A stretch of DNA of 64,000 bases from Vineibacter terrae (GTDB taxonomy: Bacteria > Pseudomonadota > Alphaproteobacteria > Reyranellales > Reyranellaceae): assembly GCF_008039615.1 (NCBI RefSeq), contig NZ_VDUZ01000041.1, positions 1 to 64,000 of the forward strand, read 5' to 3'. The stretch's first letter is position 1, and the number at the start of each line of letters is the position of its first letter. The position numbers and the translations under genes are program-made. A model generated the notes under the pieces. The model was not told where the DNA came from. It was given only the letters and a program-made list of their open reading frames with translations, and searched no databases. This document shows, piece after piece, positions 6,119-43,618 of this stretch.

Positions 6119-6323
6119 TGTCATCCCGAGCGCCCCCTTCGACAGGCTCAGGAGAGGCGATCTCCTGCGGCAAGGCGCACGGTGCGCAATTCGCGGGAGA
6201 TCCCTCGCTACGCTCGGGATGACGGTAGGGGCATATGCGATTGCCCTGCCCCCGCGGGGGACCTCCCGCATTGGCGCATCGTGCGTCCCTGGCAGGAGAT
6301 CCCTCACTGCGCTCGGGATGACA
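6119..6323. repeat. Dispersed palindromic element, complete copy plus a half copy
   Basis: The first unit (6119-6225) has a left arm TCATCCCGAGCG and a right arm GATCCCTCGCTACGCTCGGG, with an insertion in its left arm. A second, right-arm-only copy follows at about 6290-6323. It occupies almost the whole gap between two convergent transcripts, so it may act as a transcript-end structure. Same family as 1146-1227. Confidence 0.8.
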
Positions 6324-21888: not shown

Positions 21889-23133
21889 TCAGGCGCTTTC
21901 AGGCCACGGTCGGAGCCGGCGGGACGGGATGGCATGGACCACGCCCTCGGCGGCAAGCCGCTCGATGTCGGCGCCGCCGTAGCCCGCCCAGCGCGCCAGG
22001 ATCTCGGCGTTGTGCTCGCCAAGGTCCGGAGCGACGAGGCCGGTCGCCTGCGGAAACGCCGAGAAGTTCAGCGGGCTGCCCGGCACCTGGAAGCGCCCCA
22101 GCACCGGGTCGTTGACATCGCGGATCGTGCCGCGCGCCAGCAGGTGCGGATTGCGCATCGCCTGCGCGACGCTCAACACCGGCGCGCAGGGCACCCGGCT
22201 GCGGCGCAGCACGTCCAGCGCCGCCTCGTCGCTGGGCTGCGCCGTGAGCCAGGCCTCGATGATCGCCACCAGCGCGTCGCGGTTCGCCATGCGCGCCGCG
22301 TTCTCGGCAAATCGCGGATCGGTCTGCAGATCCTCCCGCCCCATGGCGACGGTCAGCCGCCGCCACATGTCATCGCTGACCGGCACCACCATCATGTAGC
22401 CGTCGCGCGACCGGAACACGCCCAGCGGCGCCAGCTGCGTGTGGTAGCGGCCGGTGCGGTGCGGATGGACCGTGCCGCCGCTGGCGCTGTGCAGCTCGAC
22501 CGACAGGCCGTGCGTGTGGAAGTAGAAGTCGATCAGGGAGATATCGAGATACTGGCCGGTCCCGCCCGGGCCGCGCCGCCAGTAGAGCGCCGCGTTGATG
22601 GCCGCCAGGGCGCTGATGCCGGCGCCGACATCGCCGACGGCGATGCCGGTCAACGGCGGCGCCTCGTCCGGCTCGCCGATCATCGAGGTGACGCCGGTAT
22701 AGGCCTGCGCGATGAAGTCGAAGCCCGGCTGCTCGGCCAACGGGCCGCTTTGCCCGAAGGCCGAGATCGAGCACATGATGATCTGGGGATTGATGGCGTG
22801 CACCACCTCCCAGCCCAGCCCCATCCTGCCGATCACGCCCGGCGAGAAGTTCTCCACCACCACGTCGATCTTCGGCAGCATCGCCTTCAGGGCCTCGATC
22901 GCCGCCGGCTTGCGCAGATCAAGGCAGAGGCTCTTCTTCCCAAGATTGTGCTGCACGAAATAGGCGCTGCGCCCGTCCCTGATCAGCGGCAGGGCACGCG
23001 CCTGGTCGCCCTTCGGCGCAAGCTCGACCTTGATGACCTCGGCGCCCAGCTCGGCCATCTGCCGGGTCGCGACCGGCCCGGCGATGTATTGCGTGAAGTC
23101 GAGGACCGTGACCCCTTCGAGCGGTCCCTTCAC
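21889..23133 (-). CDS. CaiB/BaiF-type CoA-transferase (class III)
   Basis: A 414-residue family III CoA-transferase. The N-terminal LEGVTVLDFTQYIAGP and GAEVIKVELAPKGD segments and the catalytic-Asp region GQYLDISLID are characteristic; the Asp forms the acyl anhydride/CoA thioester intermediate. It moves CoA between carboxylic acids, with an unknown substrate. Its ATG overlaps the stop of the upstream amidohydrolase by 4 nt, so the two are translated together and likely act on the same acid. Confidence 0.9.
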   Translation of the reverse strand: MKGPLEGVTVLDFTQYIAGPVATRQMAELGAEVIKVELAPKGDQARALPLIRDGRSAYFVQHNLGKKSLCLDLRKPAAIEALKAMLPKIDVVVENFSPGVIGRMGLGWEVVHAINPQIIMCSISAFGQSGPLAEQPGFDFIAQAYTGVTSMIGEPDEAPPLTGIAVGDVGAGISALAAINAALYWRRGPGGTGQYLDISLIDFYFHTHGLSVELHSASGGTVHPHRTGRYHTQLAPLGVFRSRDGYMMVVPVSDDMWRRLTVAMGREDLQTDPRFAENAARMANRDALVAIIEAWLTAQPSDEAALDVLRRSRVPCAPVLSVAQAMRNPHLLARGTIRDVNDPVLGRFQVPGSPLNFSAFPQATGLVAPDLGEHNAEILARWAGYGGADIERLAAEGVVHAIPSRRLRPWPESA

Positions 23134-24833
23134 GTCCCGCCCCGCACCAGCTTGCCCGGCAGCGCCTCCGTCGCCTCGCCGTCCTGCCGCGTCACCGCAC
23201 CTGACACGATGGTGACGTCATAGCCGTCGGCCCGCTGCACCAGCCGGCGGCCACCGGCCGGCAGGTCTCGCACCATCTCCGGCGCGCGCAGGGTCAGCCC
23301 ATCGAAGTCGATGACATTGAGGTCGCCCTTGCGCCCTGGCGCCAGCACGCCGCGATCGGCAAGGCCATAGAGCGCCGCGGTGCCGCTGGTCTGCTGGCGC
23401 ACCACCTCCTCCAGCGCCAGCTTCGGGCCCCGCCGGCGGTCGCGCGCCCAGTGGGTCAGCATGTAGGTCGGCGTGCTGCCGTCGCAGATCAGCCCGCAAT
23501 GGGCACCACCGTCGGAGAGCCCGAGCAAGGTGTTGGGATGCGCCATCATGGCGGCGATATCGGCGTGGTCACCGGCGGCGTAGTTGAAGGCCGGCATGAA
23601 CAGGAGCTCCTGCCCATCGCGCTCGAGGAGCATGTCGTAGGCGACCTCGGCCGGGTCACGGCCCTCGCGCCGGCCGATCGCCTCGGCGCTCAGCTCGGGC
23701 GGCGGCTCGTAGTCAGGCGGGTCGCCCAGCCGGAACATGCGGTCGAAGCGCTGCGTCACCGTCCGCATGATGTCGCTTCTGTGGCTCACCCGCTCCCCGA
23801 CGATCGCGTCGCGCACGGCCGGATCGCGCATCCGCGCGACCCGGTCCGCCAGCGGCAGCTCGGCAATCGCCCGGTACGCCTGCCTGGACACGAACGGGTG
23901 CAGGCTGCTCTCCAGGCCCAGCATGAAGCCGATCGGCCGGCCGGCCACCTGCGCCAGCAGCGGCTCGTTCTCCTCGCTGGCGCGCTTCGTCGCCGCCAGG
24001 ATGCGCTTCCACTTGTCGGGATCGTCATTGAACTGCACCAGCAGGAACCACACCGGCCGTCCACTGATGCGCTGCAGGCGCCGCATCCAGGCGATCTCAT
24101 CGTCGACGTCGCGGAAGTCGACGTTGACACCGATCGCCCCCTTGCCGGCGCGGCGCAGACCCGCCGAAATGCCGATCAACTCATCGACCGCGACCTCATA
24201 GCCGGGGATGTGGTTGCCGTGCTTGTCGCGGTGCACGTTCGTGCGCGAGCTGGTGAAGCCCAGCGCCCCTGCCGACATGGCCTCGGCCGCCAGATCCGCC
24301 ATGCGCGCGATCTCGTCGGGCATCGCCGGAGCGTTGGTCGCGCCGCGCTCGCCCATGACATAGGCGCGCAACGCGCCGTGCGGCAGCTGGGCGCCGATAT
24401 CGATCGCGCGCGGCATGCGGTCGAGTACATCGAGATATTCCGGAAAGCTTTCCCAGCCCCAGGGAATGCCCTCCGAGAGGGCCGTGCCGGGGATGTCCTC
24501 GACACCCTCCATCACGCCGATCAGCCATTCGTGCCGGTCGCGCTGCACCGGGGCGAAACCGACGCCGCAATTGCCCATCACGATCGTGGTGACCCCATGC
24601 CATGACGACGGCGCCAGCCACGGGTCCCAGGTCGCCTGGCCGTCGTAGTGGGTGTGAATGTCGACGAAGCCCGGCGTCACGAGACGGCCGGCGGCCGCGA
24701 TCTCGCGGCGTCCGGGGCCGGCCTTGCCGCCGACCTGCACGATGCGGTCGCCATTGAGCGCCACGTCGCCATGGAAGGCTGCCGCTCCTGTTCCGTCGAC
24801 GATCAGGCCGTCGCGAATCACCATGTCGTGCAC
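23130..24833 (-). CDS. Amidohydrolase, N-acyl-D-amino-acid deacylase family
   Basis: A 567-residue metal-dependent amidohydrolase of the D-aminoacylase type. The metal motif [14 protein letters not shown] lies near residue 60, and the later SDGGAHCG region and FMLGLESS segment fit the family. The start is GTG at 24833 (giving [16 protein letters not shown], the usual beginning), with GGGAGGAG three bases upstream. It would hydrolyse an N-acyl or cyclic amide bond in the cytoplasm. It is first in the operon with the CoA-transferase and divergent from the hydantoinase genes, so the three enzymes may share a substrate class. Confidence 0.85.
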
Positions 24834-25040
24834 GGGCTCCTCCCATTCGGTTCGTCTATCGCTGTCAACAGTACCGCATCCACCGGTCCGCGCTGTGCGC
24901 AAGGGCGCAGGTCAGACGTGCCCAATCAGCATTGGCGCATGCGGTGCAGTCCGACAGGATCGATGGCGCGTCGGCCTGAAACCGGGGCAAGCAGCCGGGA
25001 CGCGCCGCGCCACGCATAAGATGCACGTCGGAGGGAGTTT

Positions 25041-27134
25041 GTGAGCTATCGCCTGGGTGTCGATATCGGGGGAACCTTCACCGATCTTGCGCTGTTCGAC
25101 GAGCGCAATTCCGCAATGACCATCCACAAATTGCTGACCACGCCGGACGATCCCGCCAGGGCCGTGCTGCAGGGCGTGCACGAGCTGCTGGAGATGGCCG
25201 GCGCGCCGATCGAGCACGTCACGGCGCTGATCCACGGCACCACGCTCATCACCAACGCCGTGATCGAGCGCAAGGGCAGCCGGTGCGCGATGCTGACGAC
25301 GGCCGGCTTTCGCGACGTGCTGGATATCGGCATCGAGAACCGGTACGACCAGTTCGACATGCGGCTGAAGTACCCTCGGCCGCTGGTCGAGCGCACGCTG
25401 CAGCTCGAGGTCAACGAGCGTGTCGGCCCGGACGGCGAGATCCGCCGCCCGCTCGACGAGGACGAGGTGCGCAGCGTGGTCGCCCGTGCGGTCGAGCGCG
25501 GCGCCGAAAGCCTCGCGGTCTGCCTGCTGCACGCCTACGTCCAGCCAGCCCACGAGAACCGCATTCGCGCCATTGTCAAAGGCGCATTCCCCGACCTGCC
25601 GGTCTCGACCTCGGCCGAGGTGCTGCCGTTCATGCGCGAGTTCGAGCGCTGGACGACGACGACGATCAACGCCTACACTCAGCGGATGGCCGATACCTAC
25701 CTGCGGCGCCTGGAAGACGGGCTCGCCGGCATGCGCTTCGCCGGCCAGTTCTACATCATGGCTTCCAATGGCGGCACGGTGACACCTGCGACGGCAAGGC
25801 GCTTTCCCGTCCGCCTGCTGGAGTCCGGCCCGGCCGCCGGCGTGCTGATGTCGAGCCACCTCGGCCGGCTGCTGGAAGCACCCAACCTGCTCTCCTTCGA
25901 CATGGGCGGCACGACGGCCAAAGGCGCGCTGGTCATCGGCGGCGAGCCGCAGAAGAAATACGAGCTGGAAGTCGCGCATGTGCATGAGCACAAGGCCGGC
26001 AGCGGCTTCACCGTCAAGATCCCTGTTATCGACATGGTGGAGATCGGGGCCGGCGGCGGCAGCATCGCCGACATCGACGAGCGCGGCGTCATCCGGGTGG
26101 GGCCACGCAGCGCCGGCGCCGTGCCGGGCCCGGCATGCTACGGCCGCGGCGGGACCGAGCCGACGATCACCGACGCCAACGTGCTGCTCGGCTTCCTCGA
26201 TCCGGCATTCTTCCTGGGCGGGCGCATGCGGCTCGACCTGGAGGCCGCGGGCATCGCGATGCGGCAGCGCCTGGCCGAACCGCTGGGTGTCTCGCTGATG
26301 CGCGCCGCCTGGGGCGTGCACCAGACGGTCAACGAGAACATGGCGCAGGCGTTCCGCCTGCACGCCTCCGAACGCGGCTACGACTACCGCAATTTCACCA
26401 TGACCGCCTTCGGCGGGTGCGGCCCGATCCACGCCGCGCGCATCGCCCGCATCCTGCACATACCGCGTGTGATCTTCCCCGTCGGCGCCGGTGTCATGTC
26501 GGCCTTCGGGCTGCTGGTGAGCCCGCTGTCGTTCGAAACCGTCCGTTCGCATCCGCTGGCCGTGGATCGCCTGACCGACCATGACCTCGCCGCTGCGTTT
26601 GCCGCCCCGATCGCCGAGGCCACGTCCTTCCTCGACCGTGCCGGCGTCCCGGCGCGCGACATCAGGGTGAAACGCCGCCTCGACATGCGCTATCGCGGCC
26701 AGGGCTACGAGATCGAGGTGGTCCTGCCGGATCCGGACGGGCGCCTGACCGGCGTTGCCGACCTGCCGGACCTGTTCAGCCACGAGTACGCGCGCATCTT
26801 CTCTGCCGCCCAGCTGAACGAGCCGCTGGAGATCGTGAACCTCAAGGTCGAGGCGCTCGGTCCGCGACCGGCGATGGCCAAGGGCTGCCATCTCGCGGGC
26901 ATCGAGGGCGGGGCTCGGCTGAAGGGCAGCAGGCGGGTCTACCGGCCGGAGGCCGACGACCTCGTCGACTGTCCGGTCTACGACCGCTATGCGTTGCAGC
27001 CCGGTGACGTGGTCGCCGGGTCGGCGCTGATCGAGGAGCGGGAATCCACCTGCGTCATCAATTCGGGCGACGCGGTACGCGTCGATGCCGATCTGAACCT
27101 GATCGCCGACATTGCCCTCTCCGGAAGGAACTGA
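25041..27134 (+). CDS. Hydantoinase/oxoprolinase subunit A (HyuA-like)
   Basis: A 697-residue HyuA/OxoA-family subunit with the actin-like ATP-binding signature YRLGVDIGGTFTDLALF at the N-terminus, ALIHGTTLITNAVIERKG and the second phosphate loop SFDMGGTTAKG. The family includes N-methylhydantoinase, 5-oxoprolinase and the acetone/acetophenone carboxylases; the exact reaction cannot be told from sequence. The start is GTG at 25041 after GGAGGGAG. The B subunit gene follows after 2 nt. Confidence 0.9.
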   Translation: MSYRLGVDIGGTFTDLALFDERNSAMTIHKLLTTPDDPARAVLQGVHELLEMAGAPIEHVTALIHGTTLITNAVIERKGSRCAMLTTAGFRDVLDIGIENRYDQFDMRLKYPRPLVERTLQLEVNERVGPDGEIRRPLDEDEVRSVVARAVERGAESLAVCLLHAYVQPAHENRIRAIVKGAFPDLPVSTSAEVLPFMREFERWTTTTINAYTQRMADTYLRRLEDGLAGMRFAGQFYIMASNGGTVTPATARRFPVRLLESGPAAGVLMSSHLGRLLEAPNLLSFDMGGTTAKGALVIGGEPQKKYELEVAHVHEHKAGSGFTVKIPVIDMVEIGAGGGSIADIDERGVIRVGPRSAGAVPGPACYGRGGTEPTITDANVLLGFLDPAFFLGGRMRLDLEAAGIAMRQRLAEPLGVSLMRAAWGVHQTVNENMAQAFRLHASERGYDYRNFTMTAFGGCGPIHAARIARILHIPRVIFPVGAGVMSAFGLLVSPLSFETVRSHPLAVDRLTDHDLAAAFAAPIAEATSFLDRAGVPARDIRVKRRLDMRYRGQGYEIEVVLPDPDGRLTGVADLPDLFSHEYARIFSAAQLNEPLEIVNLKVEALGPRPAMAKGCHLAGIEGGARLKGSRRVYRPEADDLVDCPVYDRYALQPGDVVAGSALIEERESTCVINSGDAVRVDADLNLIADIALSGRN

Positions 27135-27136
27135 GC

Positions 27137-28798
27137 ATGCGCCAGCTCGATCCCGTCAGCCTTGGCATCATGTGGGATCGCCTCAATGCGGTCACCAACG
27201 AGATCACGACCGCGCTGGTGCGTACCTCCTTCTCGACCATCGTGCGCGAGAGCTACGACCTGTCCGTGGTGCTGTTCGACGCGAAGGGACGTCCGATCTC
27301 GCAAGGACGCCTCAGCGCGCCCGGGCACAGCGGCACCGCCGCCAACACCGTGCGCTACATCGCCGAGAGCTTCCCCATCGCGGAGATGCGCCCCGGCGAT
27401 CTTTTCATCACCAACGATCCCTGGCACGGCACCGGACACATCTACGACATGAACTTCGTCCGTCCGGCGTTCCGGCGCGGCGAGCTCGTCGGCTTCACCT
27501 TCAGCGACACCCACATGGCGGATATGGGCGGCGTCGGCTTCTCCGCCAACACGGCCGACAAGTTCGCCGAAGGCCTGCACCTGCCGGCCTGCCGCCTGAT
27601 GCGGGACGGGGTTCTCGACCGCACGATCATCTCCATCATCCGCAGCAACGTGCGCGTCGCCGACCAGGTCATCGGCGACATGATGGCGAACGTCACCTGC
27701 AACGAGCTCGGCGAGCGGCTGCTGGTCGAGTTCATGGACGAGTACGAGATCGACGACCTGAGCGTGCTGGCCGATGCCCTGCTCGGCCAGTCGGAGCGGG
27801 CCATGCGCGCAGCGATCCGGTGTATCCCCGACGGGGTCTACGCCAACCGCGTGCAGATCGAAGGGCTGGGCACGCCGCTGACGCTCGCCGTCACCTGCGA
27901 TGTGCGGGACGACGAGATCCACGTCGATTTCGCCGGCACCGATGGCCTGGTGCAGGGCGGCGTCAACGTGCCCTTCTGCTACACGCGCGCCATGTCGATC
28001 TTCGCGCTCCGTCTGCTCACCGTGCCGACATTGCCCGCCAACGACGGCTCGACCCGGCCGCTGCATTTCTCGGCGCCGGAGAACTGCGTCCTCAACGCCT
28101 TGCCGCCGGCGCCGACGGCGGGGCGGCATGTGGTCGGCCACTTCGTGACGCCACTGGTGATCGGCGCCCTCGCCGACGCCCTGCCGCATCGGGTGCAGGC
28201 CCAGTCCGGCATGATGGACCTGGTGAGCATCCAGGGCCGCCGTGGGGATGGCCGCGAGATCTCGACCATGTTCTTCGGCGCCGGCGGCTATGGCGCCATG
28301 GACGGCATGGACGGCATGGCGACGATCCCGACGCCTGCCAGCATGCGCGTCACGCCGACCGAGGTCTGGGAAAACCTCTACGGAACCACCATCGAGAGCA
28401 AGCGGCTGATCCCGGATTCCGGCGGCGCCGGGCGCTATCGTGGCGGGCTCGGCCAGGAGATCGTCATGTGCAATGACCGCGCCGGCCCGCTGGCCCTCGC
28501 CTTCTTCGGCCGCCAGACCGCTTTCCCACCGGCGGGCATCCGCGGCGGCGCCGCGGGAAGCCCGCACGGCTACGCGATCGAGGGCCGGCCCGTGCCGCCG
28601 ATCGGACGCTCCACGCTGCAGACCGGGGAACGGCTGGTCATCCGCCTGCCAGGGGGCGGCGGCTACGGCGATCCGCGCGCCCGCGATCCCGAACGCATCC
28701 TGCAGGACGTGCGCGACGGCTTCGTCAGCGTCGACGGCGCTCGCCGCGACTACGGTGTCGCGGTCGACGTGGAAAACGCGACGGTGCGGCCGCTCTGA
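27137..28798 (+). CDS. Hydantoinase/oxoprolinase subunit B (HyuB-like)
   Basis: A 553-residue HyuB-family subunit: DPVSLGIMWDRLNAVTNEI at the start, FITNDPWHGTGHIYDM (metal-binding Asp/His region) at about 93-108, and the C-terminal VIRLPGGGGYGDPRARDPE. It forms a heteromultimer with the A subunit for ATP-dependent hydrolysis or carboxylation of a cyclic amide or ketone. The intergenic distance of 2 nt indicates coupled translation. Confidence 0.9.
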   Translation: MRQLDPVSLGIMWDRLNAVTNEITTALVRTSFSTIVRESYDLSVVLFDAKGRPISQGRLSAPGHSGTAANTVRYIAESFPIAEMRPGDLFITNDPWHGTGHIYDMNFVRPAFRRGELVGFTFSDTHMADMGGVGFSANTADKFAEGLHLPACRLMRDGVLDRTIISIIRSNVRVADQVIGDMMANVTCNELGERLLVEFMDEYEIDDLSVLADALLGQSERAMRAAIRCIPDGVYANRVQIEGLGTPLTLAVTCDVRDDEIHVDFAGTDGLVQGGVNVPFCYTRAMSIFALRLLTVPTLPANDGSTRPLHFSAPENCVLNALPPAPTAGRHVVGHFVTPLVIGALADALPHRVQAQSGMMDLVSIQGRRGDGREISTMFFGAGGYGAMDGMDGMATIPTPASMRVTPTEVWENLYGTTIESKRLIPDSGGAGRYRGGLGQEIVMCNDRAGPLALAFFGRQTAFPPAGIRGGAAGSPHGYAIEGRPVPPIGRSTLQTGERLVIRLPGGGGYGDPRARDPERILQDVRDGFVSVDGARRDYGVAVDVENATVRPL

Positions 28799-29146: not shown

Positions 29147-30064
29147 TCATGTCTCGCAGCGTTGCGCCGCCAGCTCGGCGGCAGTGGTCGCTTCGGCCAC
29201 GGCCTGGGTCAGCCGGCCGCCGTAGCCCGCGCGCACCGCGCCGACCGCGAACACCCCCGGCAGGGTGGTTTCGAAACGCCCGTCGGTGACCACGAAGCCG
29301 GCGGCGTCACGCGTCACCTCCGGCCCCAGCAACGCTGCGTGGGGTGCCAGCCCGACGAACACGAAGAGCCCGCTGCAGGCAATCTGCTCCTCGCTGCCGG
29401 TTTCCCTGTCGCGCACGCGGACGCCCTCGACACAAGAGGAACCCAGCACTTCGGTGATCTCGCTCGCGAAGCGCAGCCCGAAGCGTTCGTCCGTGGCGAT
29501 GCGCGACACGTAGCTCCGGCGGGCCCGGAACTGCTCGCCGCGCGTGACGATCGTGATCCTGCTGGCGAACTGGCCGAGATGCAGCGCTTCCGACAGCGCC
29601 GCGTCTCCGCCGCCCGCAACCACGACTTCGGCACCGCGATAGAGGCCGCCGTCGCACCATGCGCACTGCGACACACCCTGCCCCGCGAGCCGCGCCGCGC
29701 CGGGGACGTCCAATGTTTTCAGGGCGGCGCCGGTGGCCACGATCACCTGGTTCGCGCGCCAGGCGCCCTCCGGGCCACGCAGCGTGCGCGTCGCGCCGCC
29801 CTTGATCGCGTCGATGCGCGACGGGATCAGCGTGACGCCCAGCGTCTCGTTCTGCCCGACGAGGCCGCCGGCTAGCTCGGCGCCCGCGACGCTGCCGGTG
29901 GCGGGCCATCCGTCCAGCGCGCCCACGTTCATCACCAGCCCGCCCGGCAGGCCGTCCTCGACGAAATGCACCACCGAGCATCCGGCCAGCGCCGCATGAT
30001 GGGCGGCCGTGAGACCAGCGATGCCGCCGCCGATCACCGCAATGTCGAACCTGCTTCCTGCCAT
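29147..30064 (-). CDS. Thioredoxin-reductase-like FAD/NAD(P) flavoprotein
   Basis: A 305-residue low-molecular-weight thioredoxin-reductase-type protein. It has an FAD-binding GxGxxG (IGGGIAGLTAA, 11-21), a redox-active CAWC at 134-137 in the context VSQCAWCDGG (standard CATC position), a second dinucleotide fold (VVVAGGGDAAL) and a C-terminal FAD motif (GVFAVGAVRAGYGG, where GD is usual). The length is normal. It is the third gene in the selenoprotein operon, so it may reduce the Sec/Cys centre of that protein. This is inference from position and chemistry. The GD-to-GA change in the last motif is mildly unusual. Confidence 0.85.
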   Translation of the reverse strand: MAGSRFDIAVIGGGIAGLTAAHHAALAGCSVVHFVEDGLPGGLVMNVGALDGWPATGSVAGAELAGGLVGQNETLGVTLIPSRIDAIKGGATRTLRGPEGAWRANQVIVATGAALKTLDVPGAARLAGQGVSQCAWCDGGLYRGAEVVVAGGGDAALSEALHLGQFASRITIVTRGEQFRARRSYVSRIATDERFGLRFASEITEVLGSSCVEGVRVRDRETGSEEQIACSGLFVFVGLAPHAALLGPEVTRDAAGFVVTDGRFETTLPGVFAVGAVRAGYGGRLTQAVAEATTAAELAAQRCET

Positions 30065-30097: not shown

Positions 30098-31339
30098 TTA
30101 TCGCGCGACGAGCGCTTCCGCATCCTCCGACGCATCCGCGAGAAGCTGCGTCCAGTCGGCCGGCAGGCGTATTTCGCGCGTGATCCGGGCCGGCGGGAAT
30201 CCCCATGACGGGCAATAGGCATTCTGCGGAATCGGGATGTCGCCGCCCGCGACCACGAGCACGATGTCATCAGGCGTGCGGGTCGCCGGAATGTCGCCGC
30301 GGCTCGCTTCCGCCTCCACCCAGTCCGGCCAGCGCCGATTGGCCAGGATGCGCTCGGTGAGCCAGGATTTCTCCCAGTCCGCCCGCCGCCAACGCCCCTG
30401 TTCCCAGAGGAAGCGGCGCACCTCGTCCTTGCCCAGGCCGCGCCGGGCGCAGTCCGCTGCGACCGCAGGCGCGATCAGCACCGTCGGCCGGCCGCTCCAT
30501 AGGATGCCGAAGCCCGACGCCGCCGAGCCCATGACGCTGGCAATCTCGCGCAGCCCGCCCGTCACGTTGATCACGCTCTCCGCCCGCGTCAGCGTGACGG
30601 CGCTCTGGTCCGCCGCCATTCCGGCCTCGACATGCAGCGGCGCCCAGGGGCTTTGCGCTTCGTTCTCGGCCAGGCACAGCGTGTAGCGTCCCGGCTGTCC
30701 CAGGCCGGCGAAGGATACCGCCCCCGGCCAGCCGCCGCCGATATTGTTCATCACCAGCCGGATGGCGCGGCCGATCGTGGCGTTCGCCTGCCAACCCGGC
30801 CCCAGCGCGCCGAACCCGCCATTGATCGCCAGCAAGCGCGCCACGGGTCCGTTCACGACCAGCAGCGGCGTCACGTTCTCATCGGTCGTCTGCACGCCGC
30901 GAAGGTTGAACGCGGGATCCAGCAGGCACTCGACCGCGGCCAGCACCACTGGAAGATACTCCGGCCGACACCCCGCCATCACGGCGTTGGCGGCGGCCCG
31001 CTCCGTAGTGGCCAGCCCTTTGAGCGGCTCGACCTCGCCCAGCACCTCGGCGGGCCCCCGCGACGTGAAACGCAGCGCCGCCTTCACGCGAGCGATGGTC
31101 GGCGCCACCACCGGCAGGCCGTCAGTCCAGCCCCGGCGGAGAAACAGCTCCTGGACGCGTTCCGCCGCGTTCGGTCCGCGCACCACTTCGACGCGCTGGC
31201 GCGGGAAGTCGGCGGCGAGCGGCACCCTGCCGCTCATGCCCTGCTCGGCCGCGCGCTGCTTCAGCGTGTCGTCGACCCACGCGCCGGAAGCCTGCTGGCC
31301 GGCCGGCACGACGAGCCACAGGCTGTCGCTGTCGGTCAT
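30098..31339 (-). CDS. Paralogue of the UGSC selenoprotein C-terminal domain
   Basis: A 413-residue protein that aligns with the C-terminal two-thirds of the neighbouring selenoprotein. Shared motifs are GWTDGLPVVAPT (about 71-82; GWSDGLPIVPPT there), the strongly conserved VMAGCRPEYLP (Cys124; Cys274 there), LVVNGP, ATIGR/TSVGR and LAENE. It lacks the N-terminal UGSC domain. The pair probably arose by duplication and may form a hetero-oligomer. No catalytic function is known to me. It starts 19 nt after the selenoprotein stop. Confidence 0.75.
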   Translation of the reverse strand: MTDSDSLWLVVPAGQQASGAWVDDTLKQRAAEQGMSGRVPLAADFPRQRVEVVRGPNAAERVQELFLRRGWTDGLPVVAPTIARVKAALRFTSRGPAEVLGEVEPLKGLATTERAAANAVMAGCRPEYLPVVLAAVECLLDPAFNLRGVQTTDENVTPLLVVNGPVARLLAINGGFGALGPGWQANATIGRAIRLVMNNIGGGWPGAVSFAGLGQPGRYTLCLAENEAQSPWAPLHVEAGMAADQSAVTLTRAESVINVTGGLREIASVMGSAASGFGILWSGRPTVLIAPAVAADCARRGLGKDEVRRFLWEQGRWRRADWEKSWLTERILANRRWPDWVEAEASRGDIPATRTPDDIVLVVAGGDIPIPQNAYCPSWGFPPARITREIRLPADWTQLLADASEDAEALVAR

Positions 31340-31358: not shown

Positions 31359-33095
31359 TCAGGCCTGCGCGTCGCGCAGGCGCGCCCGCCAGCTCTGCGG
31401 CAGCTTGACGGTCTTCGTGGTCGGGAAGCCGAGCATTCCGTTGTGCACGAACAGATAGCAGTTGGACCGCAGCGGATCGCCCGACACCGCGATCATGATG
31501 TGCTCGGGCCTCGTCACCACCGGCACCAGGCGATTGGGATCGTTGCCCGCGAAGGCCCTGGGCAGCTTGCCCAGCCGCACCCAGTCGTTCAGCGTGCGCT
31601 TGCCGGGCACGAGGTTGGTCCAACCCCAGAGATACTTCTCGAACAGGTGCGCAGGCATGCGCGCGTTCTCGTACAGCCAGCTCTGCATGTCCTGCTTGGT
31701 CATCGTCCTGGCGATGGTTTCCGCGATCAGCGGGCTCAGCACCAGCAGTGGCCGATAGGTGCCGGTCGCCAGGCCGACGGTGAAAACCAGCTCCCACCCC
31801 GTGTGCATGACCAGCGCGTTGCCGAGATAGGGCAGCACCTTCTCCGCGCTGTCACCGAACACGGAGACGATCACGTTGCCGCCGGTGAAGCGCGAGATCG
31901 TCACTGCGCTGTCGCCGGCCGGCGCGCCCATGTCGACCGACACCGTCGGCCAGTTGAGCCTGGCGAGGCAGTCCTCGTTCTCGGCCAGCACCACGCGCCA
32001 GGTGTTGCCGAAGGTCCCCTTGTCGTTCTGATGCAGCAGGAAGCCGGCGACATTGCGCAGGTAAAGCCGCCAGAACCGGCCAACCGAGGTGTTGGGCTGG
32101 AAGCCGTCGCGCAGCGCGCCCTGCTCGTAGTTGAAGCCCAATTGCTTGATCAGCGGACCGTTGAGCACGATCAGCGTCTCGGCGCCCGGCGTATTGCCGG
32201 AATGCTCGACCCCGTACTCCGGATCGGCCATGGCCTCCGCCAGCGCCACCAGGATCGGCATGTACTCCGGGCGGCAGCCGGCCATGACGCCATTCGCGGC
32301 GACGTTCCATACCGTGGCCAGACGGTTGTCGGGCGGCAGCTTGCCGATCAGATGATCCGGCGCAAGGTCCGTGAAGGCCAGGAACGCCGCAATCTTCTCC
32401 TTGGTCGGCGGCACGATCGGCAGCCCGTCGCTCCAGCCATTCTCCAGGAACAGCCGGTTGACCTCCTCGAAGCTGCCGTCGAGCACGATCTCCTGCGGGT
32501 CGGGGTCCTTGACCGCGGTCACGGCCGCGATCTCGCCGGTCAGGTTCCGGATCACATGCTCGACCGTGGTGCCGAGCACATTGCGGCGCAGGTCGGCATC
32601 GGTCTGAACGTCGACATGCCCTGGAACGGTGGCCAGGGCGAGGTTGGGATAACCCAGGCCGACGGACGTCGTCTTGGCCTGCCCGAGGAAGCCCTCGCAG
32701 CACAGCGACGACGTCGGCACGCCGGCTTCTTCTGCAATCGCGCTGACCCGCAACACGGCGGGCGTGCAGCTCCCTCAACACCCCATGCCGGAAACGACGG
32801 CATCAATCTTCAGCGACTTGATCTTGCCCGGCAGCTCCGCCAGCACCCGATGCTCCTCGTCGCCATGCGTCGAGCCGAACGCATCATGGTCGATGAACGT
32901 CATGTTCGAGTAGCGGCGCGACAGCTCCTCCTTGAGCATCGGCCAGATTTCGTCGCCGCGGAACAGATTGTCCCACAGGAACGCGATCGTCTTGCCCTCG
33001 AGCGTATCGAGCCGCCTGGCCAGCGGCTTGATGTCGACCGTCTTGGCGCCGCGCGGCCAGACCACCGGATAGCTGCCGTTGTCCCGCTGTGCCAT
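31359..33095 (-). CDS. UGSC-family selenoprotein with in-frame TGA (Sec107)
   Basis: A 578-residue protein when the TGA at 32775-32777 is read as selenocysteine. The frame before it (from 33095) ends VVSGMGC. The frame after it continues without a break as GSCTPAVLRVSAIAEEAG and is open to 31359. This gives Cys106-Sec107-Gly-Ser-Cys110, the U-G-S-C motif of a known but functionally uncharacterised selenoprotein family. A bacterial-SECIS-like hairpin follows the TGA. Domain 1 (1 to about 190) carries the redox motif and Cys132-Cys133. Domain 2 (about 210-578) carries DGLPIVPPT and GCRPEY and is shared with the next gene. Start: ATG at 33095 with GGAG 6 nt upstream; ATG 33107 is the alternative. 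Ordinary ORF calling would split it into two wrong genes. Confidence 0.88.
32746..32763 (-). promoter_or_regulatory. Candidate bacterial SECIS hairpin
   Basis: Directly downstream of the selenoprotein TGA on the minus strand. A 6-bp stem (GCCCGC pairing with GCGGGT, the outermost pair G-U) closes a 6-nt loop CGTGTT with a G in its second position. The loop begins 18 nt after the TGA. Bacterial SECIS elements sit in this interval and bind SelB through a short G-containing apical loop. The stem is short, so structure prediction should confirm it. Confidence 0.6.
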
Positions 33096-33612
33096 GCGCT
33101 TCTCCATCCCGTCGTGTTGCTTGCTTGTGGATCTGTACTAACCGCGCCTGCGCCCGAGAGACAGTGTTCCGATGGCGTGGCAGCTCTGCCGTGAAAGCTT
33201 ACCTCGAGCAGCGGGCCTTCTGGCGATTCCCGAGACACACACGTCATCCCGAGCGCAGCGAGGGATCTCCTGCGAATGGCGCACCATGCGTCTTTCGCAG
33301 GAGATCCCTCGCTACGCTCGGGATGACGGCGGCTATGCGGTTGTAGACGCCGCCTACTTCTTGCGTATTCCAGTATAGCGCCCGTTGCGGAACGCACGCC
33401 GCCGACTTGTTGACATCGCCTGTCAGGCAATGGAACGTTACGTCCAAGCCGTCGACCGAGCGGCTATCGGGGAAACATCAAGCGGCGTTTCCGGCAGCAG
33501 CCATCGCATATCCGCGAATCGCCATGACCTTGCGGCGCAGCCGCCGGCTCGGAGCCGGCCCGTTGCGTCTTGTCACGCAGCCCGCCCACGCGGGCGATTT
33601 GGGAGGGATCGC
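33096..33612. other. Divergent control region between selenoprotein operon and TRAP genes
   Basis: It holds one copy of the dispersed palindromic element (33242-33329). On the TRAP side the frame is open from 33385, but without protein-like sequence or a ribosome site until 33601. I do not see an unambiguous operator. The divergent layout suggests shared regulation of transport and the selenoprotein operon. Confidence 0.4.
33242..33329. repeat. Dispersed palindromic element, copy 4
   Basis: Left arm CGTCATCCCGAGCGCAGCGA and right arm ending GCTCGGGATGACG, with a GCGAATGGCGCACCATGCGT centre almost identical to copies 16906-16989 and 43532-43618. Confidence 0.88.
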
Positions 33613-34623
33613 ATGCTGACCATCCACAGACGTTCCGTCGTGCTGGGCGTGCTTGGTGCCGCTGCCGCGAGCAGCCGCGCCACCGCACAGTCTCCGGTCA
33701 AATGGGACATGTACTCCATGGTCGGCGTCACGCATCCCATCACGCTGCGCTACAAGGCCTTCGCTGACGAGGTGAAGACGGCCACCGGCGGCAAGCTCGA
33801 CATCATCGTGCGTCCTGCCGGCGAGCTGCCGTTCCGCGCCACCGAGGTCGTCAAGGTCACCGGCGACAACCAGGTGCAGCTCTCCGAGGGCTACCAGGGT
33901 TTCATTTCAGGCGCCGTGCCGCTGGCCTCGATCGCCAGCCTGCCGTTTCTGGTGCGCAACGGCGAGGAGCTCGAGAAAGTCTGGCCGATCATCGACAAGT
34001 ACACAGCCGTCGAGTTCAAGAAGTCGGGCGTGCAGACATTGTTCCACCACACCTGGCCGGTGCAGAACATCTTCGGCCGCGGCAAGCCGATCAAGACTGT
34101 CGATGATTTCAAGGGGCGCAAGATACGCTCCACCGACGGCAAGCAGGCCGAGATGCTGAAGCAGCTCGGCGCCTCCTCCGTCAGCCTGACCACGGCCGAG
34201 GTGCCGGTCGCCATGGAGCGCGGCGTCGCCGAGGGGTTCATCACCGCAGGCTTCAATATCATCGGCGCGAAATGGTACGAATTCGTGCAATGGGGCTGGC
34301 TCGGGGATGTTCATATCGGCGGGCCTGACTACACGCTGGTCAACGTCGCCGCATACGACAAGCTCGACGCCGATACGCGAGCGAAGCTTGATGCCGTGGC
34401 CAAGGACTATGCGCCGCGCTTCCGCGCTGCCAACCTCGGCGACGAGGCAAAGGACCTCGATACGTTGAAGACCAAATACAAGGTCGATCTGTTCGTGCCG
34501 CCGAAGGAGCAGGTCGACGCCCTGATCGAGAAGATGAAGCCGTATTGGGAGCAATGGGCGTCCGGCCACGGCGCCAACGGCGTCGCCATGCTCAAGGAGA
34601 TCCGGGCCGCCCTCGGCAAGTGA
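33613..34623 (+). CDS. TRAP transporter substrate-binding protein (DctP type)
   Basis: A 336-residue periplasmic receptor: signal peptide (about 1-25, cleavage after ATAQ), then the DctP fold with GVTHPITLRYKAFADEV and the GRKIRSTDGKQAEMLKQLGA region that carries the ligand-binding Arg in this family. It delivers a carboxylate-type solute to the membrane subunits encoded next. The ATG at 33613 follows GGGAGGGA. Together with the selenoprotein operon opposite, it may import that operon's substrate. Confidence 0.9.
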   Translation: MLTIHRRSVVLGVLGAAAASSRATAQSPVKWDMYSMVGVTHPITLRYKAFADEVKTATGGKLDIIVRPAGELPFRATEVVKVTGDNQVQLSEGYQGFISGAVPLASIASLPFLVRNGEELEKVWPIIDKYTAVEFKKSGVQTLFHHTWPVQNIFGRGKPIKTVDDFKGRKIRSTDGKQAEMLKQLGASSVSLTTAEVPVAMERGVAEGFITAGFNIIGAKWYEFVQWGWLGDVHIGGPDYTLVNVAAYDKLDADTRAKLDAVAKDYAPRFRAANLGDEAKDLDTLKTKYKVDLFVPPKEQVDALIEKMKPYWEQWASGHGANGVAMLKEIRAALGK

Positions 34624-34691: not shown

Positions 34692-35216
34692 GTGCAATCA
34701 CCGCCGCCGACCGCCAGCGCCAATCCACCCGACCGCGGCGCGGTCGATCGTGTCGTGGGGCGCATAGCGCATGCCGGCGCTCTGCTTGCCGCTGCCGCCA
34801 TCGTCGCCATCCTCGTGATGGTGTGCGCCGAGACGGCGCTGCGCCAGTTCCGGGTCTCACTGCTGGTGACCGACGAGATCGCCGGCTACCTCAACGCCGC
34901 AGCGGTCTTTCTCGGGCTGGCCTGGACCTTGCGCGAGGGCGGCTTCATCCGCGTCGAGATTCTGTACGATCGCGCCCGGGGCATTGTCGGATCAGCGCTG
35001 CGCTGGCTGATCGGGCTTACGTCGATCGCGTTCGCGGCGATCATGCTTTGGGTCTGCGCGCGGCATGTCCTCTACGCGCTGCAGCACGACACGCGCGCCG
35101 TATCGATCATCGAGACGCCCGAATGGATACCCCAGTCGGTCATGGTGATCGGCCTGGCGATCCTGTTGCTGCAGCTGCTCGCCTGGCTCGTTGCCCGCTT
35201 CCGCAACATTCCCTGA
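34692..35216 (+). CDS. TRAP transporter small permease (DctQ type)
   Basis: A 174-residue four-helix membrane protein with the DctQ pattern: helix 1 near 30-50, ALRQFRVSLLVTDEIAGYL in the loop, and ILLLQLLAWLVARF at the C-terminus. The start is GTG at 34692 after AGGAGTGAG. Its partner large permease starts 53 nt downstream. Confidence 0.88.
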   Translation: MQSPPPTASANPPDRGAVDRVVGRIAHAGALLAAAAIVAILVMVCAETALRQFRVSLLVTDEIAGYLNAAAVFLGLAWTLREGGFIRVEILYDRARGIVGSALRWLIGLTSIAFAAIMLWVCARHVLYALQHDTRAVSIIETPEWIPQSVMVIGLAILLLQLLAWLVARFRNIP

Positions 35217-35269: not shown

Positions 35270-36571
35270 ATGAATCTCGAGTTGCTGACACTGATCCTGA
35301 TCGCGAGCCTTGCCGTCATGCTGACGGCCGGCCAATGGACCGCCTTCGCGCTCGGCATCTGTGGCGTGCTGGTGCTCTACCTCAGCAAGGGCTTGCTCGG
35401 CCTCACCGCGCTTTCCTCGGTGGTCTGGAACAACGCCAACAGCTACATCCTGATCGCCGTGCCGATGTTCCTGCTGATGGGAGAGGTCATCCTGCGCAGC
35501 GGCGTCAGCGGCTATTTCTACCGCGGCGTCGTCGTCCTGCTCGGCAGCCTGCCCGGCGGCCTGCTGCACGCCAACATCACGAGCTGCGCGGTGTTCTCCG
35601 CGGTCTCGGGATCCAGCGTCGCCACCGCCGCCACGGTGGGAACCGTGGCCATTCCCGAGATGCTCAAGCGCGGCTACGAACCGCGGACGGTGTTCGGCTC
35701 GCTGGCCGCCGGCGGCACGCTCGGCATCCTGATCCCGCCGAGCATCATCATGGTGCTGTATGGCGCCCTGGTGGAGGAATCGATCGCCAGGCTGTTCATG
35801 GCCGGCGTCCTGCCCGGCCTGCTCATGGCTGCCGTCTTCATGACCTTCATCGCGCTGCTGCTGCTGTACAAGCCGCACTATGCGCCGCCGCGCGGCGCGA
35901 AAGGGGCAAGACCGCCGGCCGGCGACGTCGTCCACGTCTTTCCCGTCCTGGGCCTGCTGGTCGTGGTCCTCGGCAGCATCTATTCCGGCATCGCAACGCC
36001 GACCGAAGCCTCGGCGCTCGGCGCCTTCGGCGCCATCCTGCTCGCGGTGGGCTATCGTGCCTTCTCCCGCCGTGTCTTCGCCGAAGCGCTGATGTCCACG
36101 GTGAAGACCACCTGCATGGTGACGCTGATCATCATCGGTGCCCAGATCCTGTCCACCGCCCTCACCTATTCCGGCGTGAGCCGGACCGTCAGCGAGTGGA
36201 TCATGGGCCTCGGCCTGGGCAAGTGGGAGTTCTTCGTCGCCCTGGTCATGCTCTACATCGTGCTCGGATGCTTCGTCGACGGCATCTCGATGATCTACAT
36301 GACCCTGCCGGTCTTGCTGCCGGTGGTGAAGGCCTTCGGCTTCGACCTCGTGTGGTTCGGCGTCGTCCTCACCGTGCTGATCGAGCTCGGCCAGATCACG
36401 CCGCCCGTGGGCCTCAACCTGTTCACCATCCATGCCATCTCCGGCGGCCACAAATTCGCCGAGGTCGCGATCGGCTCGACCCCGTACGTGGCCCTGATGC
36501 TCCTGGTCATCGCGATGCTCGCGTTCTGGCCCGAGATCGCGCTCTGGCTGCCCAACACCATGCGCGGCTGA
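35270..36571 (+). CDS. TRAP transporter large permease (DctM type)
   Basis: A 433-residue, roughly 12-helix DctM subunit. The family segments are clear: SSVATAATVGTVAIPEM, GGTLGILIPPSIIMVLYG and GQITPPVGLNLFTIHAI. It forms the Na+-coupled transport channel with the small permease. Standard length, no defect seen. Confidence 0.93.
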   Translation: MNLELLTLILIASLAVMLTAGQWTAFALGICGVLVLYLSKGLLGLTALSSVVWNNANSYILIAVPMFLLMGEVILRSGVSGYFYRGVVVLLGSLPGGLLHANITSCAVFSAVSGSSVATAATVGTVAIPEMLKRGYEPRTVFGSLAAGGTLGILIPPSIIMVLYGALVEESIARLFMAGVLPGLLMAAVFMTFIALLLLYKPHYAPPRGAKGARPPAGDVVHVFPVLGLLVVVLGSIYSGIATPTEASALGAFGAILLAVGYRAFSRRVFAEALMSTVKTTCMVTLIIIGAQILSTALTYSGVSRTVSEWIMGLGLGKWEFFVALVMLYIVLGCFVDGISMIYMTLPVLLPVVKAFGFDLVWFGVVLTVLIELGQITPPVGLNLFTIHAISGGHKFAEVAIGSTPYVALMLLVIAMLAFWPEIALWLPNTMRG

Positions 36572-36592: not shown

Positions 36593-37849
36593 TCACGACC
36601 GCCCGTAGACCACGACCGCAGCCAGAGCTTCTTCGAGGCCGATCACGCCGCCGCCGTTCTCCTGCACCGCGATGCTGGCACCCTCGACCTGGCGTGGCCC
36701 GGCCTCGCCGCGCAGCTGGGTGACCAGTTCAGCGCACATGGACAGCCCGGTAGCGCCTATGGGGTGGCCCTTGGACACCAAGCCCCCGGACGTGTTGACC
36801 GGCACCTTGCCACCCAGGGCCGTAGCCCCGCTCGCGACGAACGGCCCCCCTTCACCCTCGCCACATAGGCGCAGCATCTCGCACTGATAGAGCTCGCAGT
36901 ACGAGGTGGCGTCATGCACTTCCGCCACATCGATATCCGCAGGGCCGATCCCCGCCATCCGGTAGGCGCGGTCGGCGGCAGCGCGGCTCAGGCCGGGCTC
37001 GTCCAGAGCCCGATACTTGCCGCCCGCGAGTCCGATGCCGCGAATGGCGATGGCACGCGCGCGCACCTCGGGTGGCTGGCGGCGCAGCCAGTCGCCCGAG
37101 CACACCAGTGCTGCGGCTGCCCCATCGCCGATAGGCGCGCACATGGAGCGGGTCAGCGGCTCGCTCACCAGCCGGTCCGCCAGCACCGCTTCGGGCGTGG
37201 TCGTGAAGCGGTACTGGGCATTGGGATTGAGCGCGCCGGCGTTGTGGTTCTTGGCGCAGGCATAGGCGATCTGCTCCACGGTGGTACCGTAGTGCTGCAT
37301 GTGCAGCAGAGCCTGCATGGCATAGGTGTCCATGGGCGCGGAGCGGTCCGGCCCGGTGCTGAAGCTGCGGCCGAGGCCGCGCGCGACCGCGCCGTAGTGG
37401 CCGATCCAGTCCTGTGGGTCGATCTGGTCCATGCCCTGCGCGAACGCGGCGAGCACGCGCGCCGGATCCACGGGGTCGTAGAGCTTCTCCACGCCGATGG
37501 CCAGCGTGAGCTGGGCGTCGCCGGCCTTGATCTCCTTATAGGCGCCGGCCAGCGCCAGGCTGCCGGTTGCGCAACCACCCTCGACGTTGATGATGGGCGC
37601 CCGGTCCGGGAACAGACCTTCCCGCACCAGCGGGATGAAGCACACGTTACCGCGGATGGCGGACTGGCCCCAGACATGCATGAGGCAGCTGCCGAACCAG
37701 GCCGCCTCGATCTCGTCGCCGCGGGCCAGGCCCGCGTCGGCCAGGGCGCCCAGGTAGGCCTGTCGTGTCAGCTCCTTCAGCGACTTGTTCGGCCACCGGC
37801 CGAACGGCATGCAGTGGCTGCCGACGACGTAGACATCCGTGTCGTTCAT
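36593..37849 (-). CDS. Thiolase-family acyl-CoA acyltransferase (SCP2-type)
   Basis: A 418-residue thiolase-fold enzyme: active-site Cys93 in NVEGGCATGS, EVHDAT in the middle and SKGHPIGATG near the C-terminus. The sequence is of the SCP2-like thiolase group, often used in side-chain or branched acyl-CoA cleavage. The start is the ATG at 37849 with GGAGGGA 6 nt upstream; the longer frame has no such site. Third in a transcript with an AMP ligase and a Bug receptor. Confidence 0.87.
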   Translation of the reverse strand: MNDTDVYVVGSHCMPFGRWPNKSLKELTRQAYLGALADAGLARGDEIEAAWFGSCLMHVWGQSAIRGNVCFIPLVREGLFPDRAPIINVEGGCATGSLALAGAYKEIKAGDAQLTLAIGVEKLYDPVDPARVLAAFAQGMDQIDPQDWIGHYGAVARGLGRSFSTGPDRSAPMDTYAMQALLHMQHYGTTVEQIAYACAKNHNAGALNPNAQYRFTTTPEAVLADRLVSEPLTRSMCAPIGDGAAAALVCSGDWLRRQPPEVRARAIAIRGIGLAGGKYRALDEPGLSRAAADRAYRMAGIGPADIDVAEVHDATSYCELYQCEMLRLCGEGEGGPFVASGATALGGKVPVNTSGGLVSKGHPIGATGLSMCAELVTQLRGEAGPRQVEGASIAVQENGGGVIGLEEALAAVVVYGRS

Positions 37850-37868
37850 TTGAGATCCCTCCGTGACA

Positions 37869-39422
37869 TCAGACCAGACGCTCGCGGCCTTCCCAGAACC
37901 GCTTGCGGATCTCGGTCTTCTGCACCTTGTTGTTGTTGCTGCGCGGCAGCTGTTCCCAGAACTCAACCGATTTGGGCACCTGCACGCCGCCGAGCCGGAC
38001 GCGTACCAGTTCCTGGATTTCCGCGGCGTCCGCCTGCGCATGGGGCTTGAGTTCGACCACGGCCTTGATGGCTTCGCCCCACTTGGTATCGGGTACGCCG
38101 ATCACCGCGCAGTCCTGCACCGCGGCATGGCCCAGGATGACCTGCTCGACCTCGACGCTGAAAACGTTGAAGCCGCCCGTGACGATCATGTCCTTCTTGC
38201 GGTCGACGATGTAGACGAAGCCTTGCTCGTCCTTGAAGCCCACGTCCCCCGTGTGGTGCCAGCCGAAGCGCCTTGCCTCCTCATTCGCGCGCGGATTGAG
38301 CAGGTAGCCCTGGAACACCATGCCGCTGCGCGCGACGATCTCGCCCTTGCGGCCGGGCGGCAGGAGGTTGCCCTCGTCGTCCATGATCTCCACGCGCGTG
38401 CCCAGGGTCGCGCGTCCACAGCTCGCGAAGCGGGCCGGAGCGCCCGGCGCCGTCGCCTCCAGCAGGTCGGCCGTGGACAGGAAGGTCAGCAGCATCGGAG
38501 CCTCGGCCTGGCCGAAGGATTGGCAGATGCAGGGACCGAACACCTCCATCGCCTCCCTGAACTTGTCCGGCGCGATCGGTGCAGCCGCGACGATCAGGTA
38601 TTGGAGGGAGCTGTAGTCGTATTGGCGGACGTCCGGATGCGCGAGAATCATGTAGATCAGCGTCGGCGGCAGATACATGTGCGTGACGCGGTGCCGCTGG
38701 ATCGCCTCCATGATCGCGACTGGCTCCGCTTTGCGCAGCACCACCGAGGTGGCGCCGCCGGGGATCATCCACATGGCAACGGCGCCGGCGCCGTGCGTCA
38801 TCGGCGCGGCCACCAGATGCACCGGCGCTCCCCTGGCGGGGCAGCTCGTCCACAGCGCCGCAGTCACCGCGTCCCAGGTCCGGTGCGTCCATACGGCCGC
38901 CTTGGACAGCCCGGTGGTCCCGCCCGTGGGCACGATGGCGATCACGCGGTCCGGATCGTCGGGAACTTCGGGCACCGGGCCAGGCTCCAGCGCCATCAGG
39001 ATATCAAGCGAATGAGTGGCGGCCGGGTCCTGACTGTCGATGCAGACGATGGTCTTCACGCTCGGCGTGCGTGCCGCGATCTCGCGCATGTCGGCGGCCA
39101 GCGAACTGTGGAAGAACAGCACCGAGCAGCCGGCCTGGCGGAGAAAGGCCGCGTTGACCTCGACCGGATTGCGCACGTTCACCGGAACCCAGGGACAACC
39201 AAGCCGCATCGCCGCGACGATGCAGACGAAAGCGAGCGCATCGTTGGGCGAGTACACCGCCACTCGGGCTCCGTCCGGCGTGCCGGCAGCGAACAGTCCG
39301 CCCGCGATGCGTGCCGACATCTCGTCAGCCTGAGCGAAGGTATACGACTTGTCGGGATCGACGAAGGCCAGGCGCTGCGGATCGCGCTGAAGGCCATGGT
39401 GGAAGTAATCGATGATGCGCAT
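37869..39422 (-). CDS. AMP-forming acyl-CoA synthetase/ligase
   Basis: A 517-residue ANL-superfamily ligase activating a carboxylic acid to its CoA thioester. Motif A3 is PTGGTTGLSKAAV; A7 is TGDVGFKDEQGFVYIVDRKKDM. The C-terminal A10 Lys lies in RSNNNKVQKTEI. Motif A5 is FGQAE where YGxTE is usual. Substrate not predictable; the genes around it point to an exogenous acid. 19 nt separate it from the thiolase. Confidence 0.9.
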   Translation of the reverse strand: MRIIDYFHHGLQRDPQRLAFVDPDKSYTFAQADEMSARIAGGLFAAGTPDGARVAVYSPNDALAFVCIVAAMRLGCPWVPVNVRNPVEVNAAFLRQAGCSVLFFHSSLAADMREIAARTPSVKTIVCIDSQDPAATHSLDILMALEPGPVPEVPDDPDRVIAIVPTGGTTGLSKAAVWTHRTWDAVTAALWTSCPARGAPVHLVAAPMTHGAGAVAMWMIPGGATSVVLRKAEPVAIMEAIQRHRVTHMYLPPTLIYMILAHPDVRQYDYSSLQYLIVAAAPIAPDKFREAMEVFGPCICQSFGQAEAPMLLTFLSTADLLEATAPGAPARFASCGRATLGTRVEIMDDEGNLLPPGRKGEIVARSGMVFQGYLLNPRANEEARRFGWHHTGDVGFKDEQGFVYIVDRKKDMIVTGGFNVFSVEVEQVILGHAAVQDCAVIGVPDTKWGEAIKAVVELKPHAQADAAEIQELVRVRLGGVQVPKSVEFWEQLPRSNNNKVQKTEIRKRFWEGRERLV

Positions 39423-43373: not shown

Positions 43374-43531
43374 GCGGCCGTCACGGAAGCACCGCGACGA
43401 TCCGCCGGCAAGGGCCGCGTCCTGTGTTAATCACGGATAACTTGCGCCCAGGCGGCCGCCCCGGCAGGCGAAAGGACGCAGGGCGTGCAGGTCATCGAGT
43501 ACCGGCTATCGGTGGGCGGTGAGGCGCGATT

Positions 43532-43618
43532 GTCATCCCGAGCGCAGCGAGGGATCTCCCGCGAATGGCGCACCCTGCGTCGCTTGCAGGAGATCCCTCG
43601 CTGCGCTCGGGATGACGG
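43532..43618. repeat. Dispersed palindromic element, copy 5
   Basis: Left arm GTCATCCCGAGCGCAGCGAG and right arm ending TGCGCTCGGGATGACGG, with centre GCGAATGGCGCACCCTGCGT. It sits just past the end of the flavin monooxygenase gene and before the recJ start. Confidence 0.88.

Follow-up and report, generated by a model that had tools for sequence, protein, structure and literature searches.

A selenoprotein of the UGSC family fused to a conserved partner domain in Vineibacter terrae, and its probable relation to GrdB

Introduction

In a stretch of 64,000 nucleotides from Vineibacter terrae (contig NZ_VDUZ01000041.1, positions 1 to 64,000; hereafter the window), a reading frame on the minus strand is interrupted by a TGA codon. 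This raises the question whether the TGA ends a protein, disrupts a gene or is read as selenocysteine (Sec) and, in the last case, what such a protein might do. A preliminary description of the locus had assigned the TGA to the U of the U-G-S-C motif of a known, functionally uncharacterised selenoprotein family, and this view of the family holds in the literature available. A UGSC/Unknown_1 fusion selenoprotein was reported in 2008 from the Global Ocean Sampling (GOS); according to the accessible text of that report it joins UGSC to a single conserved domain without a name, an architecture probably shared by the window gene, and UGSC-containing proteins, with 255 GOS sequences, were among the commonest selenoproteins in marine and freshwater metagenomes (PMC2398784). 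A 2026 review assigns UGSC-containing proteins no function (PMC13188914). Under the name 'UGSC family' no papers were found in the literature, nor was an enzyme assay or substrate found there for any family member. The window gene is a new member of the UGSC family (PF24696); both this family and the UGSC fusion are already published.

Results

Reading frame and family assignment

When TGA was translated as Sec, positions 31359-33095 (minus strand) gave a continuous frame of 578 aa, which starts at ATG 33095, contains a single internal TGA at 32775-32777 (minus strand; U107) and ends at the TGA at 31361-31359. The Sec context is VVSGMGC-U-GSCTPAVLRVS, with Cys106 before the TGA and Gly-Ser-Cys-Thr after it, and the U-G-S-C motif of the UGSC family is thus present in the fusion protein. 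The translation confirmed that the frame stays open for 471 codons past the TGA, and that the TGA lies on the U of the motif with Cys106 and Cys110 on either side, both of which had been claimed before. It had also been predicted that ordinary gene calling would produce a 106-residue fragment and a truncated protein from GTG 32756. Indeed, table 11 yielded two separate ORFs, one that stops at 32775 and one of 465 aa from GTG 32756. The upstream table 11 ORF begins at ATG 33107 and comprises 110 aa; because a Shine-Dalgarno-like GGAG (33105-33102) precedes ATG 33095 with a spacing of 6 nt, an N-terminal fragment of 106 residues is the better reading.

The match to the Pfam family PF24696 spans the TGA and covers residues 11-186 (E=2e-25; 90.3 bits, cut-off 25 bits), which places the UGSC domain at 32538-33065 (minus strand). 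The domain, the motif, the place of Sec and the SECIS-type hairpin described below are all shared with the UGSC family (PF24696; NF041046; the 'UGSC-containing protein' of selenoproteome surveys). The NCBIfam equivalog NF041046 scored 45.6 bits, below its cut-off of 125. In this the fusion protein differs from the typical UGSC family, being a member of a divergent subfamily of fused proteins (CUGSC) which is missed by the NCBI equivalog rule.

Conservation of the TGA and the selenocysteine machinery

The genome of the host (8.76 Mb, 135 contigs, completeness estimated at 100%) was searched for the Sec machinery, as the preliminary description had proposed, and all four components were found: tRNA-Sec (C5:31179, 75 bits), SelB (C5:29184, 431 bits), SelA (C5:26827, 575 bits) and SelD (C5:15543, 269 bits), all on contig C5 within ∼16 kb. 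Four UGSC genes are present in the genome, and every one of them contains a single internal TGA.

In a class survey of 385 genomes, UGSC genes were identified in 38, with several paralogues per genome. About 95 of the ∼100 matches contained one TGA, a handful had no stop codon, and TAA or TAG was found in none. The stop-free full-length proteins carried Cys at the Sec site (CGSC, CGSS and, at locus L073, CGLC). In addition, 80 fused relatives were fetched from a separate genome collection, of which 70 were readable at the Sec position. Together with the window, TGA was present in 71/71 readable sequences, which come from several phyla; the closest fused relatives (86-88% identity) belong to Reyranella, Enhydrobacter and Rhodospirillales/Rhodospirillaceae, which makes an origin of the window in this part of the Alphaproteobacteria probable. 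Relatives thus have TGA at the site nearly everywhere and Cys in a few cases, and none of them has TAA or TAG there. Neither of the two outcomes that would have counted against the preliminary description, a missing Sec machinery or an unrelated residue or real stop in close relatives, was observed.

A recent nonsense mutation or pseudogene, for which the only point is that table 11 reads TGA as a stop, is refuted by the conservation of the TGA in the 385-genome survey and in the 71 fused sequences from several phyla. The conserved frame and hairpin and the full Sec machinery likewise speak against it, and its probability is considered practically nil. The earlier claim that the TGA is a Sec codon and not a chance mutation is upheld by the Pfam match across the TGA, the three further TGA-containing UGSC genes of the host and the TGA in 71/71 sequences.

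SelB above the cut-off was found in 33/35 genomes with TGA-containing UGSC genes and in 21/350 others (Fisher p=5e-31). The two that lacked a full selB were G011, a genome 77% complete, and G338, where a contig edge truncates the gene. Where Cys-type UGSC was the only type, selB was absent from two of three genomes, and in four genomes (G057, G341, G123, G091) UGSC is located less than 8 kb from selB. These data also bear on the possibility that the TGA is a real stop, with two proteins being made and the hairpin serving termination or re-initiation. GTG 32756 lies 18 nt past the TGA, as such a reading would need, but the Cys-coding homologues are one continuous protein across the site, TGA-containing UGSC genes track selB, and a stop would sever the domain at its active site. 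A real stop is therefore very improbable, although partial termination may occur at the UGA, as in other selenoproteins. Judged from the sequence comparisons, the UGA at 32777-32775 is almost certainly read as Sec; it would be decoded by the host's own SelA/B/C/D through the hairpin immediately downstream.

A SECIS-type hairpin downstream of the UGA

Folding of the 50 nt from the UGA gave a hairpin with the core CCCGC[CGUGUU]GCGGG at 32762-32747, within a SECIS-type element at 32742-32770 (minus strand), and its loop GU is found at +19/+20 after the UGA. The window hairpin alone was no better than shuffled sequences (z 0.14 and -0.51), and its support comes from tests at the level of the family.

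Among the fused sequences, the codons following the TGA were strongly restricted compared with the usage expected from the same genes. This was observed for Pro at +5 (CCC in 69/71, expected 0.29), Ala at +6 (GCC in 71/71, expected 0.45), Val at +7 (GTG in 71/71, expected 0.43), Leu at +8 (TTG in 57/68, expected 0.10) and Arg at +9 (CGG in 71/71, expected 0.29). From +10 onward, codons in the 71 sequences were mostly near background usage. When 50 Sec sites of the family were compared with synonymous-codon shuffles, the native sequences folded better, with a mean z of -1.54, against -0.55 for 270 control windows (p=1e-7).

The stand-alone UGSC genes have another stem, about GUCGUGC[AGUUU]GCAUGAC, at an equal distance from the UGA. 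Pairing in this stem was 88% in its true register but 7-46% when the register was shifted, and A-U, G-U and G-C all occur at one of its pairs. In both the fused and the stand-alone subfamily the loop GU is positioned 19-21 nt past the UGA. The SECIS of E. coli fdhF has its loop GU at a similar distance. It is concluded that the codons after the TGA are held at synonymous sites in a SECIS-type hairpin.

Predicted fold of the UGSC domain and its relation to GrdB

The AlphaFold2 model of the protein had a pLDDT of 90.3 and a pTM of 0.91. In the model, the UGSC domain consists of five strands (residues 36-41, 66-68, 99-105, 128-133 and 154-157) alternating with helices, and Sec107 is located in the loop between the third strand (99-105) and helix 110-123. 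In structure comparisons the domain matched PurE-type, B12-binding and other Rossmann-like domains with Z ∼9-10, and thioredoxin was absent among the matches listed. The domain is therefore predicted to be a Rossmann-like alpha/beta domain and not thioredoxin-like, and the thioredoxin-like fold suggested in the accessible text of the GOS report (PMC2398784) is not supported by the model. The Rossmann-like arrangement is common, and the structural matches show no function. Foldseek matches of the full model (fumarate hydratases, FtsZ) had TM values of 0.15-0.2 and were treated as meaningless. No convincing solved relative emerged when the PDB was searched by sequence, whether with the protein itself, with a GrdB-like protein or with the profiles of UGSC and its partner.

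To compare families, profiles of 113 UGSC sequences and 30 GrdB-like sequences (PF07355), many of the latter containing TGA, were aligned with hhalign. This resulted in E=6.6e-6 in one direction and 9.8e-7 in the other, with Sec aligned on Sec and UxxC on UxxC. As controls, eight unrelated families gave E of at least 0.03, and reversed profiles 0.3-0.5. The alignment covers ∼75-100 columns with an hhalign probability of 85-91% and is poor ahead of Sec. The similarity is to GrdB/PrdB, which carry Sec in the glycine/betaine/sarcosine and D-proline reductases, and to short proteobacterial GrdB-like proteins (PF07355). In UGSC and in these proteins alike, a DAVV-type strand precedes Sec and an E-x-x-GxPT segment comes after it. 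The PF07355 (GRDB) model itself had no match in the fusion protein at E<=0.01. On the strength of the profile alignment, the UGSC domain is probably a distant relative of GrdB, and UGSC may work like GrdB though it lies outside PF07355. The host genome additionally encodes one short GrdB-like (PF07355) protein (L091, G000:C49:58677-58889), whose frame ends at a TGA followed by PFCTRAV and which is a probable further selenoprotein of the UxxC type.

The partner domain

The C-terminal two thirds of the fusion protein form a separate domain with the signature GWxDGLPxVPPT...VMAGCxPEY, located at 31476-32468 (minus strand; GWSDGLPIVPPT...VMAGC...). No Pfam model and no NCBIfam model matched this partner domain. 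When it was used alone in Foldseek and VIA-align searches nothing was found (best E 0.5, Z 3.4), and neither a known nor a new fold is claimed. Its profile showed no relation to the GrdB and UGSC profiles. A second, stand-alone partner copy of 413 aa is encoded at 30098-31339 (minus strand) and follows the fusion gene after ∼20 bp; a second copy was also present, within the fetched stretch, in the loci of 44/80 fused relatives.

When the partner profile was run against the 385 genomes, it identified 38 of them, a set identical to that of UGSC. By chance, identical sets of 38 would have a probability of ∼1e-53 if genomes were independent, a value that ignores phylogeny. The partner was fused or adjacent at every fetched UGSC locus except one (L041, G065:C119), where no partner was found within 1.5 kb of the UGSC gene and the partner gene is on another contig of the genome. 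Stand-alone UGSC genes have the partner gene next to them. UGSC and its partner very likely constitute one system, an obligate two-component unit, and their co-occurrence is the strongest functional statement of this study.

At six stand-alone loci the partner carried an N-terminal CxxC domain of thioredoxin-like appearance, with weak Pfam support (E 0.03-0.1). The MAGC of the partner was changed to MAGA in the Cys-type loci L075 and L076 and to MAGG in the Sec-type locus L071, which indicates that the conserved Cys of the partner is not strictly required. At the three further UGSC selenoprotein loci of the host genome (L009/L055, L010/L056 and L011/L057), the partner is a separate gene in two and fused or in-frame in one; the partner at L056 has a thioredoxin-like N-terminal domain with CHTC.

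Neighbouring genes

Downstream of the second partner copy, positions 29147-30064 (minus strand) encode a thioredoxin-reductase-like FAD/NAD(P) flavoprotein, which has CAWC where TrxR has CxxC and scores below the equivalog cut-off. A TrxR-like gene was found in the loci of 38/80 fused relatives. Divergently from the selenoprotein gene, a TRAP importer is encoded on the plus strand by the solute-binding subunit DctP (33385-34623, the true start probably being downstream of 33385), a probable small permease DctQ (34692-35216), named by its position between DctP and DctM, and the large permease DctM (35270-36571). The TRAP importer is common to four close loci, an OpuAC glycine-betaine-type binding protein was found in three other loci and an oligopeptide-type (SBP_bac_5) ABC importer in two. 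As the type of transporter varies between loci, a single substrate is unlikely.

Further away in the window, a caprolactamase/hydantoinase-like pair and a D-aminoacylase-like amidohydrolase are encoded at 23130-28798, and thiolase-like and acyl-CoA-synthetase-like genes at 36593-39422; these genes flanking the locus possibly represent downstream steps. Genes for MlrC-type M81 metallopeptidases were observed near fused UGSC genes in several relatives (L061, L063, L066, L130, L136, L138, L139, L142 and L149).

Upstream of the selenoprotein gene, at 33242-33328, a palindromic repeat is present with 42-nt arms that are 93% complementary and separated by a 3-nt gap. It also occurs in the window at 6196-6323, 16962 and 43531-43617. 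Its core, GAGATCCCTCGCTNCGCTCGGGATGAC, has ∼580 copies in the genome (282 in forward and 298 in reverse orientation) and none in the backward control. The copies often form inverted pairs ∼58 bp apart, and the repeat is a REP-like element.

Discussion

In glycine and D-proline reductases, the Sec of GrdB/PrdB acts on a substrate that is activated by a pyruvoyl subunit, and the selenol is restored by thioredoxin/TrxR-type reductants. This supply of electrons to the Stickland reductases can be likened to the TrxR-like neighbour of UGSC. By analogy, we infer for UGSC and its partner the formation of a complex, the cleavage of a bond, the route of electrons and the class of substrate. The UGSC selenol would sit where a Rossmann strand ends, three residues before the resolving Cys (U-x-x-C). 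It would attack or reduce an activated bond in a small substrate lying against the partner domain, and a Se-substrate adduct or a selenenylsulfide would result. The TrxR-like neighbour, or elsewhere the thioredoxin-like domain fused to the partner, would then return the site to the selenol. The substrate would be a small molecule, imported here by TRAP and at other loci by ABC importers of the betaine or oligopeptide type; its product would probably enter central metabolism. Taken as a whole, this chain, in which a GrdB-like reductase linked to thioredoxin acts on a small molecule taken up from outside, is the preferred but tentative reading, and the reductive cleavage of a bond in such a metabolite is likewise rated somewhat short of an even chance.

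Compared with GrdB/PrdB, UGSC has a different partner domain and is found in proteobacteria and other phyla, not only in Stickland fermenters. Since the partner showed no relation to the GrdB and UGSC profiles, and no GrdE/PrdA homologue was seen at the locus, the pyruvoyl half of the Stickland reductases may have no counterpart.

Two other functions were considered. UGSC could be a generic thiol-disulfide oxidoreductase, whose U-x-x-C reduces disulfides or peroxides in the manner of thioredoxin or peroxiredoxin. The UxxC motif, the TrxR-like neighbour and the fusion to a thioredoxin-like CxxC domain would suit a redox relay, and a thioredoxin-like fold was rated likely in the accessible text of the GOS paper (PMC2398784). 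However, the confident AlphaFold2 model is Rossmann-like with no thioredoxin among the matches listed, the profile relation points to GrdB, and the obligate partner and the importers better suit a dedicated metabolite enzyme, so this function is rather unlikely. Alternatively, UGSC and its partner might bind or transform a toxic electrophile, metalloid or organohalide, in detoxification and not in metabolic feeding. Selenols are strong nucleophiles, the presence of several UGSC paralogues per genome would fit such a role, and a GrdB-like protein is mentioned in the accessible text of a paper on monofluoroacetate dehalorespiration (PMC10838667). The neighbours, however, are importers and catabolic-type genes and not efflux or resistance genes, and detoxification is considered unlikely.

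Returning to the GrdB-like reductase, we would suggest, with more reserve than for the reaction itself, that UGSC and its partner form a new two-component class of selenium-dependent reductive-cleavage enzymes in proteobacteria and other phyla. Such a class would be of the GrdB lineage with a different second subunit, a non-Stickland counterpart of the betaine and proline reductases that has diversified over many substrates. Obligate pairing is not reported in the accessible text of the GOS account (PMC2398784), and the openly accessible literature was found to contain neither this pairing nor the link to GrdB, the constraint on synonymous sites in the hairpin or the proposed correction of the fold.

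Selenoproteins of the fused subfamily are lost in annotation, as the frame is cut at the likely catalytic residue and the NCBI equivalog model falls short. With a partner that is absent from Pfam and NCBIfam, and with the link to GrdB, an orphan family gains a concrete and testable biochemical question.
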